Of a stretch of 38,109 nt of DNA, positions 5,420 to 14,062 are shown one piece after another. The notes under the pieces are model-generated. The model saw only the letters and a program-made list of their open reading frames with translations. It was not told the origin of the DNA and did not search any database. Both the position numbers and the translations under genes were made by a program. Location: contig NZ_JAGGRI010000056.1 of the NCBI RefSeq assembly GCF_018612875.1, positions 10,610 to 48,718 of the forward strand, in the 5' to 3' direction. This DNA comes from Lysobacter sp. ISL-50 (GTDB lineage: Bacteria; Pseudomonadota; Gammaproteobacteria; Xanthomonadales; Xanthomonadaceae). Numbering within the stretch: position 1 is the stretch's first letter; each line of letters starts with the position of its first letter.

Positions 5420-5436
5420 TGTATCCGAATGTATCC
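5420..5436 (+). promoter_or_regulatory. Tandem repeat motif upstream of hvf operon
   Basis: TGTATCCGAATGTATCC: two TGTATCC units exactly 10 bp apart, 117 bp before the hvfX start. The same architecture (13 of 17 positions identical) occurs at 9676-9692 ahead of the hydrolase-ccdA-redoxin-two-component operon. Ten-bp direct repeats are typical of OmpR-family response regulator sites, and the first 14 nt resemble the RstA box read in reverse (TGTAACNANATGTA). An alternative is an ECF-sigma -35 element (GTAACC-like). Confidence 0.5.
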
Positions 5437-5552: not shown

Positions 5553-6239
5553 ATGCAGTATCTGCCTTCCACCCTCTCGTCCCTCACCCCGCGCATCGAT
5601 GCGGTGGGCCGCTGGCTCGCGCCGACTGGTCTGCGCGTGGTGCTGGCTTGGGAATTCTTCGAAGCCGGCCGCGAAAAGTGGCTGGGCGAGAACTGGTTCG
5701 CCGATCTGGGCGACAAGTTTCCGCTGCCGTTCTCGCTGCTCGGGCCGGACGTGAACTGGACCCTGGCCACCTGGCTGGAACTGAGCGCCAGCATCGCCCT
5801 GCTGTTCGGACTGGGCACGCGCTACGCCGCCTTCGCGCTGTGGGTGCTGACCGTGGTCGCCATCTACGCCGTGCACTGGCCCAGCGATTGGTCGAGCCTG
5901 AGCGAGCTGTGGCAGGGCTACGCGATCAGCGACCAGGGCCACGGCAACTACAAGCTGCCGCTGCTGTATCTGGTGATGCTGCTGCCGCTGATCCTCAACG
6001 GCGGCGGCCGCCTCAGCCTCGACCATCTGCTGAGCGCCGCGCGCACCGCCGGCGCCAACGGCGGTTTCGATCGCCAGGCCTGGGGCGCGACCGCACTGGC
6101 CTTCGGCTTGCCGCTGAGCCTGCCGCTGCCGTGGCTGGGCGGCGCGATGGCCGTCGTCGGCGTCGCTTTGATCGCGTTCAAACCCCGCACCGTCGCGGAT
6201 TCGGGCGCCATGGCCGCCGCCTTCGCCGCGGCTCGCTGA
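5553..6239 (+). CDS. hvfX: HvfX/BufD-like DoxX family membrane protein
   Basis: A 228-residue membrane protein of the DoxX-like superfamily. The start was chosen at [10 protein letters not shown] behind CAGGAG; the longer open frame is a shadow of the exporter gene. Four main hydrophobic segments are visible (about 25-40, 68-82, 88-108, 133-150), plus a C-terminal hydrophobic pair near 180-210. [16 protein letters not shown] (33-48) is a DoxX-like signature. In HvfABCX/bufferin clusters a DoxX-like protein accompanies the precursor and the DUF692/DUF2063 maturation pair; its exact role is unsettled. It is first in the operon, 113 nt before hvfA. The family name rests on cluster context and general fold. 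Confidence 0.82.
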
Positions 6240-6352: not shown

Positions 6353-6778
6353 ATGTCCCGTAACGATTCGAACATCCGCACCTCGACCCGCAACCACAGC
6401 CTTGGCCTGATCGGCGTCGCCCTGGCCGGCGGCATGTTCCTGAGCGGCTCGGCCTTCGCCGTGCAGCCGCTGGCGCAGGGGTATCTGGCCTCGTCCGGCC
6501 ACGCCGCCAAGGCCGGCGAAGGCAAGTGCGGTGAAGGCAAATGCGGCGAAGAGAGCTTCGCCAAGACCGACACCAATCACGACCAGAAGGTCTCGCGCGA
6601 GGAATTCATCGCCGCCGCGCCCAAGCGCGCCGCCGAGTTCGACCAGATCGACACCGACAAGAACGGCAGCATTTCCCTGCCCGAAGCCCTGAAGTCGGTC
6701 GAAGCCGCGCGCAAGGCGGCCGGCAAGTCGGTGGGCGAAGGCAAGTGCGGCGAGGGCAAGTGCGGCGGTCAGGCCTGA
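6353..6778 (+). CDS. hvfA: HvfA/bufferin-type RiPP metallophore precursor with two EF-hands
   Basis: A 141-residue exported precursor. It has an unusually long signal peptide (about 1-36, cleavage after AFA) and two EGKCG motifs at 56-65 (Cys59, Cys64). Two canonical EF-hand loops follow, D73-E84 ([12 protein letters not shown]) and D100-E111 ([12 protein letters not shown]), then two further EGKCG motifs at 129-138 (Cys132, Cys137). In this RiPP family the EGKCG cysteines are converted to oxazolone/thioamide or thiooxazole-type copper ligands by HvfBC. The EF-hand insert should bind Ca2+ or a similar ion and lies between the paired core segments. The start ATG follows CGGAGAAAC. A strong terminator-like hairpin follows the stop, which would give more precursor than enzymes. 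Family confidence is high from motif and neighbours; the role of the EF-hands is unknown. Confidence 0.9.
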
Positions 6779-6785
6779 TCGTCTT

Positions 6786-6826
6786 GCGCCCCTTCCCATC
6801 CCTCCCCGGGAAGGGGCGCTTTTTTT
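6786..6826 (+). terminator. Intra-operon terminator/attenuator between hvfA and hvfB
   Basis: A perfect 12-bp GC-rich stem (6786-6797 with 6808-6819) with a 10-nt loop, followed directly by seven T (6820-6826). It begins 7 nt after the hvfA stop and ends 20 nt before the hvfB start, so it lies inside an otherwise continuous operon. Partial read-through would favour the precursor over the maturation enzymes. Confidence 0.85.
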
Positions 6827-6846: not shown

Positions 6847-7704
6847 ATGAACGACTTCCACGCCTCCACCCACGCCGGTCTCGGCCTGCGCCGCGGCCTG
6901 TTGCCCGAACTGCTGACGATGGACGAGCACGCCGTGGATTTCCTCGAATGCGCGCCCGACAACTGGATCGGCGTCGGCGGCCGCTTCGGCGAAGCGCTGG
7001 CGCAGTTGTCCGCGCGTTTCCCGCTGAGCTGCCACGGTTTGTCGCTGTCGCTCGGCGGCACGCAGCCGCTGGACACGGTGTTGCTTGGCCGCACTCGCGA
7101 ATTTCTAGATCGCCACCGGGTGAGCCTGTACAGCGAGCACCTGAGCTACTGCAGCGACGACGGCCATCTGTACGACCTGATGCCGATCCCGTTCACCGAC
7201 GAAGCCATCCATCACGTCGCCGGCCGCATCCGCCAGGTGCAGGATCTGCTGGGCCGGCGCATCGCGGTGGAGAACGTCTCCTACTACGCCGCGCCGTATC
7301 AGGCGTTGAGCGAAATCGACTTCATCGGCGCGGTGCTGGCCGAAGCCGATTGCGATCTGCTGCTGGACGTCAACAATCTTTTCGTCAACGCCTGCAACCA
7401 CGGCTACGACGCCGGCCGGTTCCTGGCGCGGCTGCCGGCGCAGCGCATCGCCTCGATGCACATCGCCGGCCATTACGACGAAGCCGAGGATCTGAAGGTC
7501 GATACCCACGGCGCGCCGGTCAAGGACGATGTGTGGTCCTTGCTCGAACAGGCCTATGCGCGTTTCGGCGTGCGCCCGACTCTGCTGGAGCGCGATTTCA
7601 ATTTCCCGCCGCTGAGCGAGCTGCTGGCCGAAACCGACCGCATCCGCGCGATGCAGACCGCGGCGATGAGCGTGGCCGACACCCGCGAGGCCGGCCATGA
7701 CTGA
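6847..7704 (+). CDS. hvfB: HvfB, DUF692 (MbnB-like) multinuclear iron RiPP maturase
   Basis: A 285-residue DUF692 protein with a TIM-barrel fold. The N-terminus [13 protein letters not shown] is typical. Conserved metal-ligand segments are visible: [10 protein letters not shown] (His63), [35 protein letters not shown] and DTHG. By family, these hold a di/tri-iron centre that oxidises the Cys of the EGKCG core peptide together with the HvfC partner. The start was taken at MNDFHASTH (6847); an in-frame ATG at 6832 (MRAAAMNDF) is possible. It overlaps hvfC by 8 nt, indicating translational coupling. It lies just after the attenuator-like hairpin, so expression is probably below that of hvfA. Confidence 0.93.
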
Positions 7705-8485
7705 GCGCCTGCTCGAACAGCAGTACACCCTCGCCCGCCATCTGCGCGATCCGGCCCGGCACGCGCCGCCGCCCGGCATCGAAGCGCGCCGCCTGCGGGT
7801 CTATCGCGAGTTGTTCTTCGGTTCGATCGAATCCCTGCTCGCCGGCAGCTTCCCGGTGATCCGCCAGACCCTGGACGAACCCCGCTGGCGCGCGCTGGTG
7901 CAAGCGTTCTACGCCGACTACCGCAGCCAGACACCGTTGTTCACCCGCATCGCCGCCGAGTTCGTCGCCTTCGTGCAGCAATACGAAGCCTTGCGCGATG
8001 ACGCGCCGTGGCTGGCGGAACTGGCGCATTACGAGTGGGTGGAGATCGATCTGCAACTCAGCGACACGCCGGCGCCGGCGTATCGCGCCGATGGCGATCT
8101 GCTCGAAGCGGTGCCGCTGCTGTCGCCGCAGGCGCTTGCGCTGGGTTATCGCTGGCCGGTGAATCTGATCGGCCCGCAGTTGCAACCGCGCACGCCGCCG
8201 CAATCGCCGACCTTGCTGCTGGTGCATCGCGACCCCGCGCACGAGGTGCGCTTCGCGCAGATCGCGCCGCTGACGTACCGACTGCTGCAGTCGCTGCACA
8301 GCCATCGCTGGTCCGGCCGCCGCCACCTGCGCGCGCTCGCGGACGAAACCGGCGGCGACGCCGACGAACTGCAGGCGCAGGGGCTGGCCTTGCTGGAACA
8401 GCTACGCGAGCAAGCAATCGTGCTCGGCACCGCCGCCGACGATGCACCGCCGCCCTCTTCCACTTCGACCCGGAGCGATCCATGA
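7697..8485 (+). CDS. hvfC: HvfC, DUF2063 partner protein of the RiPP maturase
   Basis: A 262-residue protein. The N-terminal DUF2063 domain (about 5-95) shows the expected pattern [29 protein letters not shown] and the [15 protein letters not shown] segment. By analogy with MbnC and BufC it recruits the precursor leader and forms a complex with HvfB. The C-terminal half (about 150-250) has the [16 protein letters not shown]-like strand pattern and a final helical part. It overlaps hvfB by 8 nt and shares ATGA (8482-8485) with the next gene, so all three are translationally coupled. Confidence 0.92.
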
Positions 8486-9138
8486 ATCTGCAAACCACGA
8501 CGCCGCTGAGCAGCGGTTGGAAACTGTTCGGCCTGATCGCCGCGCTGATCCTGGCCATGTCCGCCGCCATCTTGTGGGCGCATGCGGATCCGGTCGAAGG
8601 CGTGCGCAGCCTCATCCGCGCCACCGCCCGGACCTCGTTCGCCTTGTTCCTGATCGCCTTCACCGCCTCGGTCTTCGTCGCCCTGGTGCCGGCGCCGTGG
8701 TCGAAAGCGGTGCTGCGCGAACGCCGCTACATCGGTCTGGCGTTCGCGTTCTCGCATCTGGTGCACGCCATCGCGATCTACAGCTACGGCCGGCTCTCGC
8801 CGGAGTTCTGGCCCGGCCGCACCGGTTTCGCGAATGTTCCCGGCTCGGTCGGTTACCTCTTCATCGTGTTGATGACCGTCACCTCGTTCAAGCCGGTGGC
8901 GCGCCGTCTCAGCGCCGTCGCCTGGAAGCGCCTGCACACCTCCGGCATGTGGGTGATCGCGGCGGTGTTCGCCTCCTCGTATTTCAAGCGCATTCCGATG
9001 GATTCGGCCTACGCGATCCCGTTCGGAATCTTGTTGGCGGCGATCGCGATCCGCCAGGTCGGCAAGCTCGCGCAAGCCAACAAACGCCGTCAGGCCGCGA
9101 CACGCGGCGCCGCTCAGTACCCAACCGAAGCCGCGTAA
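8482..9138 (+). CDS. Ferric-reductase-like (YedZ/MsrQ-type) heme membrane protein
   Basis: A 218-residue membrane protein with about six hydrophobic segments. AFSHLVHAIAIYSYG (about 91-105) and WKRLHTSGMWV (about 148-158) place histidines within membrane helices, as in heme-b-binding ferric reductase-like transmembrane domains. No flavin or NAD(P)H domain is present, so electrons must come from a partner or from quinol. It starts within the hvfC stop (ATGA overlap, CGGAG upstream), so it is part of the hvf operon. A role in reducing copper or in quinone-linked redox chemistry of the metallophore is an inference. It could also be an unrelated membrane redox protein. Confidence 0.65.
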   Translation: MNLQTTTPLSSGWKLFGLIAALILAMSAAILWAHADPVEGVRSLIRATARTSFALFLIAFTASVFVALVPAPWSKAVLRERRYIGLAFAFSHLVHAIAIYSYGRLSPEFWPGRTGFANVPGSVGYLFIVLMTVTSFKPVARRLSAVAWKRLHTSGMWVIAAVFASSYFKRIPMDSAYAIPFGILLAAIAIRQVGKLAQANKRRQAATRGAAQYPTEAA

Positions 9139-9205: not shown

Positions 9206-9631
9206 ATGATCAAGCAAACCGAAGAAGTGCTTTACACCGCCCACACCCACACCAGCGGCGGCCGCGACGGCAGCGGCCGTTCCAGCGACGGCGCCATCGA
9301 CGTCAAACTCAGCACGCCCGGCTCGGGGCGGTCGGGCAGCAATCCCGAGCAGTTGTTCGGCATCGGCTACTCGGCGTGCTTCATCGGCGCGATGCAGTTG
9401 GCCGGCGCCAGGCTCGGCATCAAGCTGCCGGCCGACGCCGCCATCGACGCCGCCGTGAGCCTGGGCAAGACCGACGGCGGCGCCAGCTATCTGCTCTCGG
9501 TGAAGTTGACCGTGATCCTGCCGGGCCTGGACGACGCGCGGAAGCATCAGTTGGTCGAAGCCGCGCATCAGACCTGCCCGTACTCGCATGCCACCCGCGG
9601 CAATGTCGATGTTCAGTTCGAAATCGTCTGA
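9206..9631 (+). CDS. ohr: Organic hydroperoxide resistance protein Ohr
   Basis: A 141-residue OsmC/Ohr-fold thiol peroxidase. The peroxidatic cysteine lies in GYSACFIGAM (Cys58) and the resolving cysteine in TCPYSHATRG (Cys124). The conserved GGRDG (Arg20) and NPEQLFGIGY (Glu48) segments complete the Ohr active site. It reduces organic and lipid hydroperoxides to alcohols, using lipoylated-protein thiols by family knowledge. The length is that of typical Ohr (about 140). The start follows GGAG. It lies 67 nt after the reductase-like gene with no terminator seen between, so it may be the last gene of the hvf transcript. No OhrR-type MarR gene is adjacent. Confidence 0.93.
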   Translation: MIKQTEEVLYTAHTHTSGGRDGSGRSSDGAIDVKLSTPGSGRSGSNPEQLFGIGYSACFIGAMQLAGARLGIKLPADAAIDAAVSLGKTDGGASYLLSVKLTVILPGLDDARKHQLVEAAHQTCPYSHATRGNVDVQFEIV

Positions 9632-9675: not shown

Positions 9676-9692
9676 TGTAAGCCAATGTAACC
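9676..9692 (+). promoter_or_regulatory. Tandem repeat motif upstream of hydrolase-ccdA-redoxin-TCS operon
   Basis: TGTAAGCCAATGTAACC: two TGTAA units 10 bp apart, 103 bp before the hydrolase start. It matches the 5420-5436 motif at 13 of 17 positions, and both are followed about 60 bp later by GATAC-N13-AATAGCC. The first 14 nt resemble an RstA-type box. The regulator may be the response regulator encoded at 11994 in the same gene group. Confidence 0.5.
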
Positions 9693-11330: not shown

Positions 11331-11888
11331 ATGAACAAGCCCCTGAGCCTGCTCAAACCCATCTTCTGCGCGCTGTGCCTGTGCGTCGCCGCCGGCGCCT
11401 GCACGCCCGGCGCCCACGCCGAGCCGGTGCACGGCACCCAGACCCTGCCCGCGCCCAAGGCGCCCGAGTTCGAAGGCATCGACCGCTGGATCAACAGCCC
11501 GCCGCTGACCATGGCCGGTTTGCGCGGCAAGGTCGTGCTGGTCGAGTTCTGGACTTACTCGTGCATCAACTGCATCCACGTCATGCCCTACGTGAAGCAA
11601 TGGCACCAGCGCTATCAGCCCGCCGGCCTGACCGTGATCGGCGTGCATACGCCGGAATACGGCTACGAGAAAATCGCGCGTAACCTCGATGCGGCGGTGA
11701 AGCGCTTCGGCATCGAGTACCCGGTCGCGCAGGACAACGCCTTCGCCACCTGGAACGCCTACCACAACCGCTACTGGCCGGCGCTGTACCTGACCGATCG
11801 CGACGGCCATGTGGTCTACGAGCACTTCGGCGAAGGCGGCTACGCCCAGACCGAAGCCAAGATCCAGCAATTGCTGCAGGCGCGCTGA
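11331..11888 (+). CDS. Exported thioredoxin-like redoxin (TlpA/DipZ C-terminal type)
   Basis: A 185-residue protein with an N-terminal hydrophobic export signal. It could be cleaved after AHA (30), or it could be a lipoprotein with Cys24 (AGAC). The redox site EFWTYSCINCIHVMPY has Cys78 and Cys81; WTYSCINC is characteristic of DipZ-associated redoxin domains. It probably receives electrons from the CcdA protein encoded just upstream and reduces periplasmic disulfides. The start follows AAGGA. A GC-rich hairpin near 11898-11927 follows the stop and may weaken read-through into the response regulator gene. Confidence 0.88.
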   Translation: MNKPLSLLKPIFCALCLCVAAGACTPGAHAEPVHGTQTLPAPKAPEFEGIDRWINSPPLTMAGLRGKVVLVEFWTYSCINCIHVMPYVKQWHQRYQPAGLTVIGVHTPEYGYEKIARNLDAAVKRFGIEYPVAQDNAFATWNAYHNRYWPALYLTDRDGHVVYEHFGEGGYAQTEAKIQQLLQAR

Positions 11889-11993
11889 GCCAGCACCGCA
11901 AGCGCACGCGCCGCGGCGCGCGCGCTTGCTGGGGCATAATCGCAAACAGGCCGAATCCGGGCCTGGCGTCCTTTCCACCGGCGGGATTTGTGC

Positions 11994-12734
11994 ATGAAAC
12001 AGCTCGATCACATCCTGATCGTCGATGACGACCGCGACATCCGCGAAATGGTCGCCGACTATCTGCAGAAGAACGGCCTGCGCACCACCGCGGCCGCCGA
12101 CGGCCGGGAAATGCGCGCGGTGCTCGACACCCACGCGGTCGATCTGATCGTGCTCGACGTGATGATGCCGGGCGAAGACGGCCTGGTGCTGTGCCGCAAT
12201 CTGCGCGCGAGCAAGCACCGCTCGATCCCGGTGCTGATGCTGACCGCGCGCGACGACGCCACCGATCGCATCATCGGCCTGGAAATGGGCGCGGACGATT
12301 ACGTGGTCAAGCCGTTCTCGGCGCGCGAGCTGCTGGCGCGGATCAACGCGGTGATCCGCCGCACCCGCATGCTGCCGCCGAATTTGCAGATCAGCGAAGC
12401 CAGCCGCCTGATCGCGTTCGGACAGTGGCGACTGGACACCAGCGCGCGCCATCTGCTCGATGAGCAGGACACGGTCATCGCCCTGAGCGGCGCGGAGTTC
12501 CGACTGCTGCGGGTGTTTCTCGATCACCCGCAGCGCGTACTCAGCCGCGATCAGCTGCTGAACCTGACCCAGGGCCGCGACGCGGAGCATTTCGACCGCT
12601 CCATCGACCTGCTGGTCAGCCGCCTGCGCCAGCGCCTGCAGGACGGCGCGCGCGAGCAGACCTACATCAAGACCGTGCGCAGCGAAGGCTACGTGTTCTC
12701 GATGCCGGTCACCCTCGTCGGCGACGAGGCATGA
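11994..12734 (+). CDS. OmpR/RstA-type DNA-binding response regulator
   Basis: A 246-residue response regulator. The receiver domain has the acidic pair VDDDRD (about 10-15), phospho-acceptor Asp55 in VLDVMMPGEDG, and Lys in VVKPFSAREL. The C-terminal winged helix (about 145-240) has the OmpR pattern (LSGAEFRLLRVFLDHPQRVLSR...SIDLLVSRLRQRLQ...IKTVRSEGYVF). The ATG was chosen over an in-frame TTG two codons upstream. CATAAT at 11935-11940 is a possible -10. The stop overlaps the kinase gene by 4 nt. It may bind the tandem repeats at 5420 and 9676 (inference from repeat geometry and location). Confidence 0.93.
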   Translation: MKQLDHILIVDDDRDIREMVADYLQKNGLRTTAAADGREMRAVLDTHAVDLIVLDVMMPGEDGLVLCRNLRASKHRSIPVLMLTARDDATDRIIGLEMGADDYVVKPFSARELLARINAVIRRTRMLPPNLQISEASRLIAFGQWRLDTSARHLLDEQDTVIALSGAEFRLLRVFLDHPQRVLSRDQLLNLTQGRDAEHFDRSIDLLVSRLRQRLQDGAREQTYIKTVRSEGYVFSMPVTLVGDEA

Positions 12735-14062
12735 ACGCCGCGGCCGCCAAGGCGCCGTCGGCATGGCTGCCGCGCAGCATCGCCTCGCGGCTGTACCTGA
12801 TCCTGTTCGCCGGCCTGCTGCTCGCGCATGGGTTGTCGTTCGGCCTGTTGTTCTATGAGCGTTACGTCACTGCCACCTCGATGATGCTCGGCAATCTGGA
12901 GCAGGACGTGATCACCTCGGTCGCGGTGCTCGACCGTATTCCGGCCGCCGAACGCACGGAATTCCTGCCGCACCTCACCCGCCGCACCTACCGCTACGTG
13001 CTCAGTGCCGGTGAGCCGGGCCGCGCCGAACTCAGCGAACGCGCGCAGAGCATTACCCGCATGATCGGCTCGGCGCTGGGGCCGCGTTATCCGGTGCGCG
13101 CCGATACCGTCTCGCAGCGACCGGAGCGCTTCCAGGTTCATCTGACCCTGGGCGACGGCCATCCGCTGACGATCGAAGTCACGCCCTCGACGATGCCGAT
13201 CGCGCAATGGCTGCCGTACGTGCTGGCGATCCAACTGGGCTTGCTGCTGCTGATCACCTGGCTGGCGGTGCGGCTGGCGACGCGGCCGCTGGCGTGGCTG
13301 GCCAACGCCGCCGAATCGCTGAGCCCCAGCGGCGGCGGCAAGCCGCTGCGCGAAGGCGGCCCGACCGAAGTGGCCAAGGCGGTGTCGGCGTTCAACGCGA
13401 TGCAGGACCGCATCGCCGCCTACCTGCGCGAGCGCCTGCAGATTCTCGCGGCGATCTCGCACGACCTGCAGACGCCGATCACGCGCATGAAGCTGCGCAC
13501 CGAAGCCATGGACGAGTCGCCGCTGCGCGCCAAGCTGATCGACGATCTCGACGAAATGCAGCATCTGGTGCGCGAAGGCGTCGCCTACGCGCGCAGCGCC
13601 CACGGCGCGTCCGAGCCGCCGCTCAAGCTCGATCTGGACGCGTTCCTCGACAGTCTGGTGTTCGATTACCAGGACACCGGCAAGGACGTGGTCCTGGCCG
13701 GATGCGTCGGCGCGCCGATCTTCACCCGCCCGCACGCGCTGCGCCGGGTGATCGGCAATCTGATCGACAACGCGGTCAAGTACGCCGGCGCGGCCGAAGT
13801 CGAAGTCGTGCGCGCCGCCGACGGCGGCATCGCCGTCAGTGTGCTCGATCGCGGCCCCGGTATTCCGGAGCCGGAGCTGGACGCGGTGCTGCAGCCGTTC
13901 TATCGCCTGGAGGCCTCGCGCAACCGCGACAGCGGCGGCGCCGGCCTGGGTCTGGCCATCGCTCAGCAGCTGACGCTGTCGTTGAACGCGAAGCTGGTCC
14001 TGGAAAACCGCGAAGGCGGCGGCTTGCGCGCCACCTTGTCGCTGCCGTCGGCGAAGACCTGA
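12731..14062 (+). CDS. EnvZ/RstB-like sensor histidine kinase
   Basis: A 443-residue inner-membrane kinase. TM1 lies at about 19-38 and TM2 at about 160-180, flanking a roughly 120-residue periplasmic sensor of no recognised domain. A HAMP region follows (RLATRPLAWLANAAESL). The H-box AISHDLQTPITRMKLR has phospho-acceptor His244. The N-box NLIDNAVKYAG and G-boxes DRGPGIP and GGAGLGLAI complete the ATPase domain. It overlaps the response regulator by 4 nt (ATGA), so it is the cognate partner. The signal is unknown; the genomic position beside copper RiPP and thiol-redox genes suggests metal or redox stress. Confidence 0.93.
   Translation: MNAAAAKAPSAWLPRSIASRLYLILFAGLLLAHGLSFGLLFYERYVTATSMMLGNLEQDVITSVAVLDRIPAAERTEFLPHLTRRTYRYVLSAGEPGRAELSERAQSITRMIGSALGPRYPVRADTVSQRPERFQVHLTLGDGHPLTIEVTPSTMPIAQWLPYVLAIQLGLLLLITWLAVRLATRPLAWLANAAESLSPSGGGKPLREGGPTEVAKAVSAFNAMQDRIAAYLRERLQILAAISHDLQTPITRMKLRTEAMDESPLRAKLIDDLDEMQHLVREGVAYARSAHGASEPPLKLDLDAFLDSLVFDYQDTGKDVVLAGCVGAPIFTRPHALRRVIGNLIDNAVKYAGAAEVEVVRAADGGIAVSVLDRGPGIPEPELDAVLQPFYRLEASRNRDSGGAGLGLAIAQQLTLSLNAKLVLENREGGGLRATLSLPSAKT

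Follow-up and report, generated by a model that had tools for sequence, protein, structure and literature searches.

The gene at 6353..6778 (+ strand) of the window, which is the whole 38,109-nt stretch of Lysobacter sp. ISL-50 DNA analysed here, probably encodes a two-armed variant of the EfhP-type EGKCG/EF-hand precursors. The sequence, a structure model and the analogy with EfhP favour a protein with a calcium-folded core and flexible copper-binding arms, a reading that we hold at a probability of about 0.58. The layout in which EGKCG cassettes stand on both sides of an EF-hand pair recurs in several bacterial lineages.

The precursor and its operon

Translation of the gene gave 141 aa with a signal-like start, two EGKCG motifs, two EF-hand loops and two more EGKCG motifs, the order read in an earlier note on the same DNA. 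The signal peptide (residues 1-36, 6353..6460, +) was assigned by eye from its hydrophobic core and AFA end. The N-side cassette (residues 56-65, 6518..6547, +) and the C-side cassette (residues 129-138, 6737..6766, +) were placed by translation and by constraint within the genus, and their motif cysteines are Cys59, Cys64, Cys132 and Cys137, at the positions that had been claimed. Two perfect EF-hand loops had been described as well. Both loops are present (loop 1, residues 73-84, 6569..6604, +; loop 2, residues 100-111, 6650..6685, +), but only loop 2 has Gly at position 6; loop 1 has Gln there, and without that Gly its calcium binding may be weak. Among the matches listed, which include the window protein, 42 of the 44 both-sided proteins had Gly at position 6 of loop 1 and two had Gln, those of the window's genome and its nearest relative.

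The EF-hand pair proved genuine by Pfam profiles and by an AlphaFold2 model. EF-hand_1 scored 32 bits (cut-off 25.4) over two stretches of the precursor, and EF-hand_5, _6 and _7 also exceeded their cut-offs in the profile search; EF-hand_8 stayed below its own. The proposed membership of the HvfA family was likewise upheld, with NCBIfam NF050137 (KCGExKCG_twice, HvfA family) at 31.9 bits over two stretches (cut-off 19.5) and an operon shared with HvfB, HvfC and DoxX/HvfX. Identity with classical HvfA was rejected; the equivalog NF050188 reached 22.9 bits against a cut-off of 95, leaving the precursor a relative only. Lanmodulin is an EF-hand protein like the precursor, but a lanthanide site was also rejected, the profile match being weak (17.8 bits, cut-off 135). 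A stretch around LxQGYxL directly after the signal peptide (6461-6493 of the window) was conserved in EF precursors, with L, G and Y at ≥90% in A1 and A2, and was seen by eye in an EF-less precursor too (L112); it is a candidate HvfC recognition site.

Profile searches placed the precursor gene inside a DoxX-HvfA-HvfB-HvfC operon. It follows a DoxX/HvfX-family gene (5553..6239, +; Pfam DoxX 74.6 bits, cut-off 23.6; NCBIfam NF050144 138.6, cut-off 80) and precedes the MNIO maturase HvfB (6847..7704, +; PF05114 343.9 bits; NF003818 427.9 bits, cut-off 360) and the DUF2063 partner protein HvfC (7697..8485, +; NF050145 284.8 bits, cut-off 142). A hairpin followed by a T-run in the precursor-HvfB gap (6799..6816, +) is a possible partial terminator or stabiliser. 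Folding of this intergenic stretch was assessed in 65 short-gap loci, one of them C-only; against mononucleotide shuffles, z fell below -2 for 16 of the 35 both-sided loci and for 20 of the 29 N-only ones.

A ferric-reductase-like membrane protein (8482..9138, +; PF01794 32.6 bits, cut-off 28) and an Ohr-family peroxiredoxin (9206..9631, +; TIGR03561 152.5 bits, cut-off 88.85) come next. Downstream of Ohr are an abhydrolase gene, a DsbD-like gene, a TlpA/ResA-like thioredoxin recognised by profile matches (11331..11888, +) and a two-component pair. Nine chosen same-genus stretches were compared, of which six were both-sided and three were N-only. All nine kept the gene order DoxX-HvfA-HvfB-HvfC-FerR-TlpA-RR-HK; Ohr (three of nine), abhydrolase and DsbD were variable. 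Upstream LysR and LysE genes were found in all six both-sided stretches and in none of the three N-only ones. The gene order of these stretches thus indicates that both kinds share the operon together with its downstream partners but not the upstream border. The window's genome has a second MNIO locus (L112; G000:C47:10812-11609 plus flanks) with an EF-less precursor, which argues that the EF domain is optional; that precursor carries EGSCG and EGKCG motifs.

Layouts, descent and known systems

Genome contigs were scanned by pattern with the window protein as query, and the best 80 of at least 167 relatives were kept; 60 related genomes supplied 30 further loci, the window's own included, giving a total of 110. 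Cassettes were counted with the motif [KRQS]CG. This search for HvfA-like EF-hand proteins, which the earlier note had recommended, was productive: among the matches listed, an EF-hand protein with KCG motifs was present in 107 of the 110 loci and absent from L107, L109 and L110. The 107 chimaeras among these matches comprised 62 N-only, 44 both-sided and one C-only protein; these shares should not be read as frequencies, since loci were sampled for their similarity to the window protein. Near copies are numerous among the Pseudomonas rows, L081 is the window's own locus, L038 and L088 have identical HvfB, and L072 contributed one of its two chimaeras. In L081 and L082 an over-long frame was read, which added a false N-side motif; each in truth has 2+2. 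Only one N-side motif was found in 10 of the 44 both-sided proteins among the matches listed.

Three more both-sided proteins were recognised by eye in other families of the class (L114-L116). Together with the 44 of 107 among the matches listed, they rule out a lone oddity of one genome. N-only chimaeras occur in the same genus too: 18 of its 20 genomes matched at E 1e-8, seven with the both-sided kind and eleven with the N-only kind. At the same threshold, even sampling of the class gave matches in 7 of 369 genomes, the window's own among them.

Among the matches listed, HvfB lay within 1.5 kb downstream on the same strand in 44/44 both-sided and 29/62 N-only loci; two further N-only loci had HvfB elsewhere. 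A maturase could be missed in L007, L009 and L016, since these stretches extend no further than about 620 bases from where the match begins. Altogether 33 N-only genes (e.g., L003, L004, L006-L016, L018-L020, L022) had no maturase just downstream, and 30 of these 33 kept a BfmR-type repeat at 0-1 mismatch. For DoxX, the counts among the matches listed were 13 of 44 both-sided and 25 of 62 N-only loci.

The HvfB tree test used 73 of 77 rows, with L078, L080, L099 and L110 dropped as long or isolated; L060 was left out of the tree, its HvfB being cut short. On HvfB the both-sided label required eight changes, at least four of them forced by strong branches. The test rejected one clade for all both-sided HvfB genes (p-AU 1.6e-60), and with it a single origin of the layout; one clade for the seven both-sided HvfB genes of the genus was not rejected (p 0.19). 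On the EF-domain tree, whose 49 columns resolve little, the label required only two changes. In that tree the seven proteins of the genus joined four from Pseudomonas (SH-aLRT 90), and the window protein fell within an EfhP-like N-only group; the HvfB genes of these seven and four do not group. Because the EF-domain and HvfB groupings differ, the sequences suggest, tentatively given the short alignment, that precursor genes have been swapped while the maturases stayed in place.

The earlier note had called the protein an unusual RiPP design, a claim that does not stand as such: EGKCG/EF-hand chimaeras, of which Pseudomonas EfhP is the one that has been studied, and a possible calcium role are already in print (PMC12452194), as is a proposal of dual Ca/Fe sensing by EfhP (PMC11559002). 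As described in the text of PMC12452194, such chimaeras share with the window protein a membrane-directed N-terminus, EGKCG motifs and two EF-hands, and their EGKCG family has MNIO, DUF2063 and DoxX neighbours, as in the window. However, the EF-hands are placed there at the C-terminus of a short EGKCG domain, whereas the window protein has EGKCG motifs after its EF-hands too. EfhP (PA4107) of Pseudomonas aeruginosa, compared by its published description, likewise combines EGKCG repeats, four motifs in all, with two EF-hands, and its gene also precedes DUF692 and DUF2063 genes (PMC4053335, PMC8025907, PMC11559002). The same sources describe EfhP as being under BfmR control with bfmRS (PA4101-PA4102) nearby, for which the window has candidate counterparts. 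Both EfhP loops are reported to have Gly at position 6 (PMC9132961), unlike loop 1 of the window protein.

The captophorins fontiphorin, oxazolin (HvfA) and gonophorin also resemble the window protein in their EGKCG motifs and in maturation by MNIO and PME1, according to the text of PMC13097082, which nowhere mentions an EF-hand for them; the window protein has an EF-hand pair. As in captophorins, EGKCG repeats follow the signal peptide (by eye) in the window protein, and an MNIO maturase and a DUF2063 partner adjoin its gene. As in EfhP-type systems, the EGKCG domain precedes two EF-hands within an MNIO operon, and a BfmR-type repeat lies upstream by sequence match. The C-terminal EF-hands followed by NGKxxP...F that mark this type are absent, and a C-side cassette stands there instead. 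This NGKxxP...F element near the C-terminus was common to 36 aligned N-only proteins (N, K and F at ≥90%); the window protein keeps only its GK and lacks the P...F part. Since the C-side cassette replaces the C-terminal EF-hand end, the window protein was classed as a variant of the EfhP type. Whereas the chimaera, the operon and the possible calcium role were known, both-sided cassettes, the near-fixed N-side spacing and a BfmR-type repeat shared by such operons beyond Pseudomonas were not seen described in the searched literature text and appear new to that extent.

A BfmR-type repeat and its candidate reader

A direct repeat, TGTATC-CGAA-TGTATC, lies at 5420..5435 (+), 117 nt before the DoxX start, and fits the published BfmR motif TACAA-N3-GATACA (PMC8025907) when read on the other strand. 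It is perfect (TGTATC-N4-TGTATC) and is the sole match at ≤2 mismatches in the window; five shuffles of the window together gave one such match. The repeat was perfect in 9/9 fetched same-genus stretches; in L095 and L096, which are additional genomes of the genus, it carried a single mismatch.

In the sampled loci, the 400 nt preceding the operon were scanned (for L081 and L082, those preceding a wrong start). Among the matches listed, 56 of 62 N-only loci had the repeat at 0-1 mismatch. Of the 44 both-sided loci among these matches, seven, all in the window's genus, had it at 0 mismatch, four, the Pseudomonas ones, had it at 2 mismatches, and 33 were without it (3 or more mismatches), indicating that control through the repeat is not tied to the both-sided layout as such. 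Shuffled sequences gave 0-1 mismatch in 2/1,240 N-only and 0/880 both-sided cases (2/2,120 overall). A second copy before the two-component genes was sought and rejected: a weak direct repeat with 3 mismatches, TGTAAGCCAATGTAACC at 9676-9692, before the abhydrolase-DsbD-TlpA-two-component genes, was the only one there and occurred in the window and its nearest relative only, out of 11 sequences examined.

In P. aeruginosa, the efhP-PA4106-PA4105 operon is reported among the top targets of BfmR, and efhP as the gene that it activates most (11,268-fold; PMC8025907). An OmpR-family response regulator (11988..12734, +) is the candidate reader of the 5420 repeat in the window and stands beside its partner sensor histidine kinase (12731..14062, +), both in 9/9 same-genus stretches. 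From motif and linkage we infer that this regulator is a candidate BfmR. The regulators of eight of the nine stretches and of L042 were 82-85% identical to it, that of the nearest genome was 100% identical, and that of L001 was 81% identical. Among the 25 best matches listed, no curated equivalog model exceeded its cut-off for the regulator or the kinase.

Cassette geometry and the proposed roles of calcium and copper

Constraint was tested on orthologues from seven same-genus genomes (21 pairs, which are not independent). The C-side cassette had 0/504 non-synonymous and 6/126 synonymous differences, a weak test alone because synonymous change was itself low. The N-side region 55-65 had 10/546 non-synonymous against 42/147 synonymous differences, and all ten amino-acid differences fell at residue 55, just ahead of the motif. 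The EF pair had a pN/pS of about 0.40. By this comparison of coding sequences, retention of the cassettes in the genus is not chance.

The loop pattern required D at position 1 and E at position 12 and allowed eight residues at position 6; constancy of D1 and E12 is therefore no finding. It missed N-only loops with other position-6 residues, and 7 of 62 N-only proteins gave one loop only. From the last N-side Cys to loop 1, the 47 both-sided proteins had 6 (31 proteins), 9 (12), 12 (1), 15 (2) or 18 (1) residues, so that 43 of 47 had 6 or 9. In N-only proteins the spacing was 9 in 56/62 and 6 in 1/62, and by eye it was 9 in the 5/62 where the pattern missed loop 1. The both-sided spacings were all multiples of three (L065, L078, L104, L105, L114), a post hoc observation on few independent cases. 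Twelve C-side linker lengths occurred, the shortest being 9 and the longest 28 residues.

The AlphaFold2 model of the window protein (41 rows, near copies dropped) formed an EF pair over residues 66-122, with block means of 79-89 over residues 71-120. Residues 14-61 and 128-141 were below pLDDT 50, as were both cassettes except residues 62-65. A model of the N-only protein of L093 (36/62 N-only rows) was alike. Together with the spacings, the model indicates that the N-side cassette lies directly against the first EF helix, with the C-side cassette on a variable tether. Structure prediction had been proposed as a check; the model supported the EF pair and gave no support to a meeting of the ends, the arms being mostly below pLDDT 50. 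Foldseek searches against the PDB returned polcalcin and calmodulin lobes at a best E of 9.6e-3, with none below 0.001.

In the favoured reading of a calcium-folded core with flexible arms, a BfmR-like two-component system would switch the operon on through the 5420 repeat, as motif and linkage suggest. Cytoplasmic calcium is about 0.1 μM. In this calcium-poor compartment the EF-hand pair would be unfolded, HvfB and HvfC could reach all four EGKCG cysteines and convert them to 5-thiooxazoles, and the precursor would stay fit for Sec export, as EfhP and other EGKCG peptides suggest. Periplasmic calcium would then fold the pair into a core predicted to resemble a calmodulin lobe and to begin right after the N-side cassette, and the modified tails would serve on it as flexible Cu(I)-binding arms. 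Calcium would be mainly a folding and localisation cue, not the builder of one fixed copper site, and would perhaps expose a docking surface as in EfhP. The dual calcium and copper role put forward earlier is reasonable by analogy, since EfhP is reported to bind Ca2+ selectively (Kd 13.7 μM) and, without calcium, to lack a stable fold and probably to be a molten globule (PMC9132961). EGKCG cysteines are reported to become 5-thiooxazoles in peptides that bind Cu, and of the shortened FonA peptides the two-repeat one was modified and the one-repeat one was not (PMC13097082). Against this reading, the output reported in the EfhP studies is calcium signalling and iron uptake, not copper.

The protein could instead be mainly an envelope calcium sensor like EfhP, with the cassettes as a second input for iron or copper or as a remnant, and with calcium exposing a partner surface. 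We consider this unlikely. It draws on the selective calcium binding of EfhP, on its gain of hydrophobicity with calcium and on the loss of calcium-induced pyocyanin when its calcium binding was disabled (PMC9132961); dual Ca/Fe sensing through its EGKCG cysteines has also been proposed (PMC11559002). The conserved NGKxxP...F of N-only proteins might dock to a partner, but the window protein lacks its P...F part. Moreover, the cassettes are the most constrained part of the protein in the genus and therefore unlike a remnant, and the maturase lies just downstream in every both-sided locus (44/44 among the matches listed).

Two further readings give calcium a direct part in copper binding. In one, which we regard as improbable, folding fixes the last N-side thiooxazole on the core and the C-side arm joins it, so that copper is held tightly only at high calcium, outside the cytoplasm; to this end the layout would have arisen repeatedly. 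The other, quite improbable, is the earlier proposal that a calcium-folded middle brings the two modified Cys pairs together in a single calcium-gated four-ligand copper site. The first helix of an EF-hand pair packs beside the last, with both ends on one side. This arrangement, the constraint on the cassettes, the lack of a single both-sided clade on HvfB and the near-fixed N-side spacing (43/47 at 6 or 9), which among spacing, copy number and model is the one feature leaning toward a fixed site, all speak for that proposal. However, mostly disordered arms, variable motif number (one N-side motif in 10/44 both-sided proteins among the matches listed) and a C-side linker of 9 to 28 residues speak against its precise form. 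N-only proteins of the genus have the same downstream neighbours, 62/107 chimaeras among the matches listed lack a C-side cassette, and stochastic copper binding is suspected for EGKCG peptides (PMC13097082).

It is highly improbable that the EF pair is only a folding or anti-aggregation module that helps export and keeps copper-loaded arms soluble, with no sensing or gating: copper-loaded fontiphorin did precipitate and form large particles (PMC13097082), calcium-free EfhP has no stable fold (PMC9132961) and the precursor at the genome's other MNIO locus lacks EF-hands, but L112, L107 and L110 manage without the domain and linkage to a two-component system suggests more than solubility.

Why MNIO-made copper peptides bear calcium domains can be tested simply here: a single genus contains N-only as well as both-sided precursors whose operon partners are the same, a natural experiment on the function of the second arm. 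Through the repeat these operons are connected with a BfmR-type envelope regulator, which would link the literature on EfhP calcium with that on copper RiPPs. If calcium-dependent folding keeps the precursor accessible to modification and to Sec export, this would suggest how exported proteins with folded domains can serve as RiPP substrates.
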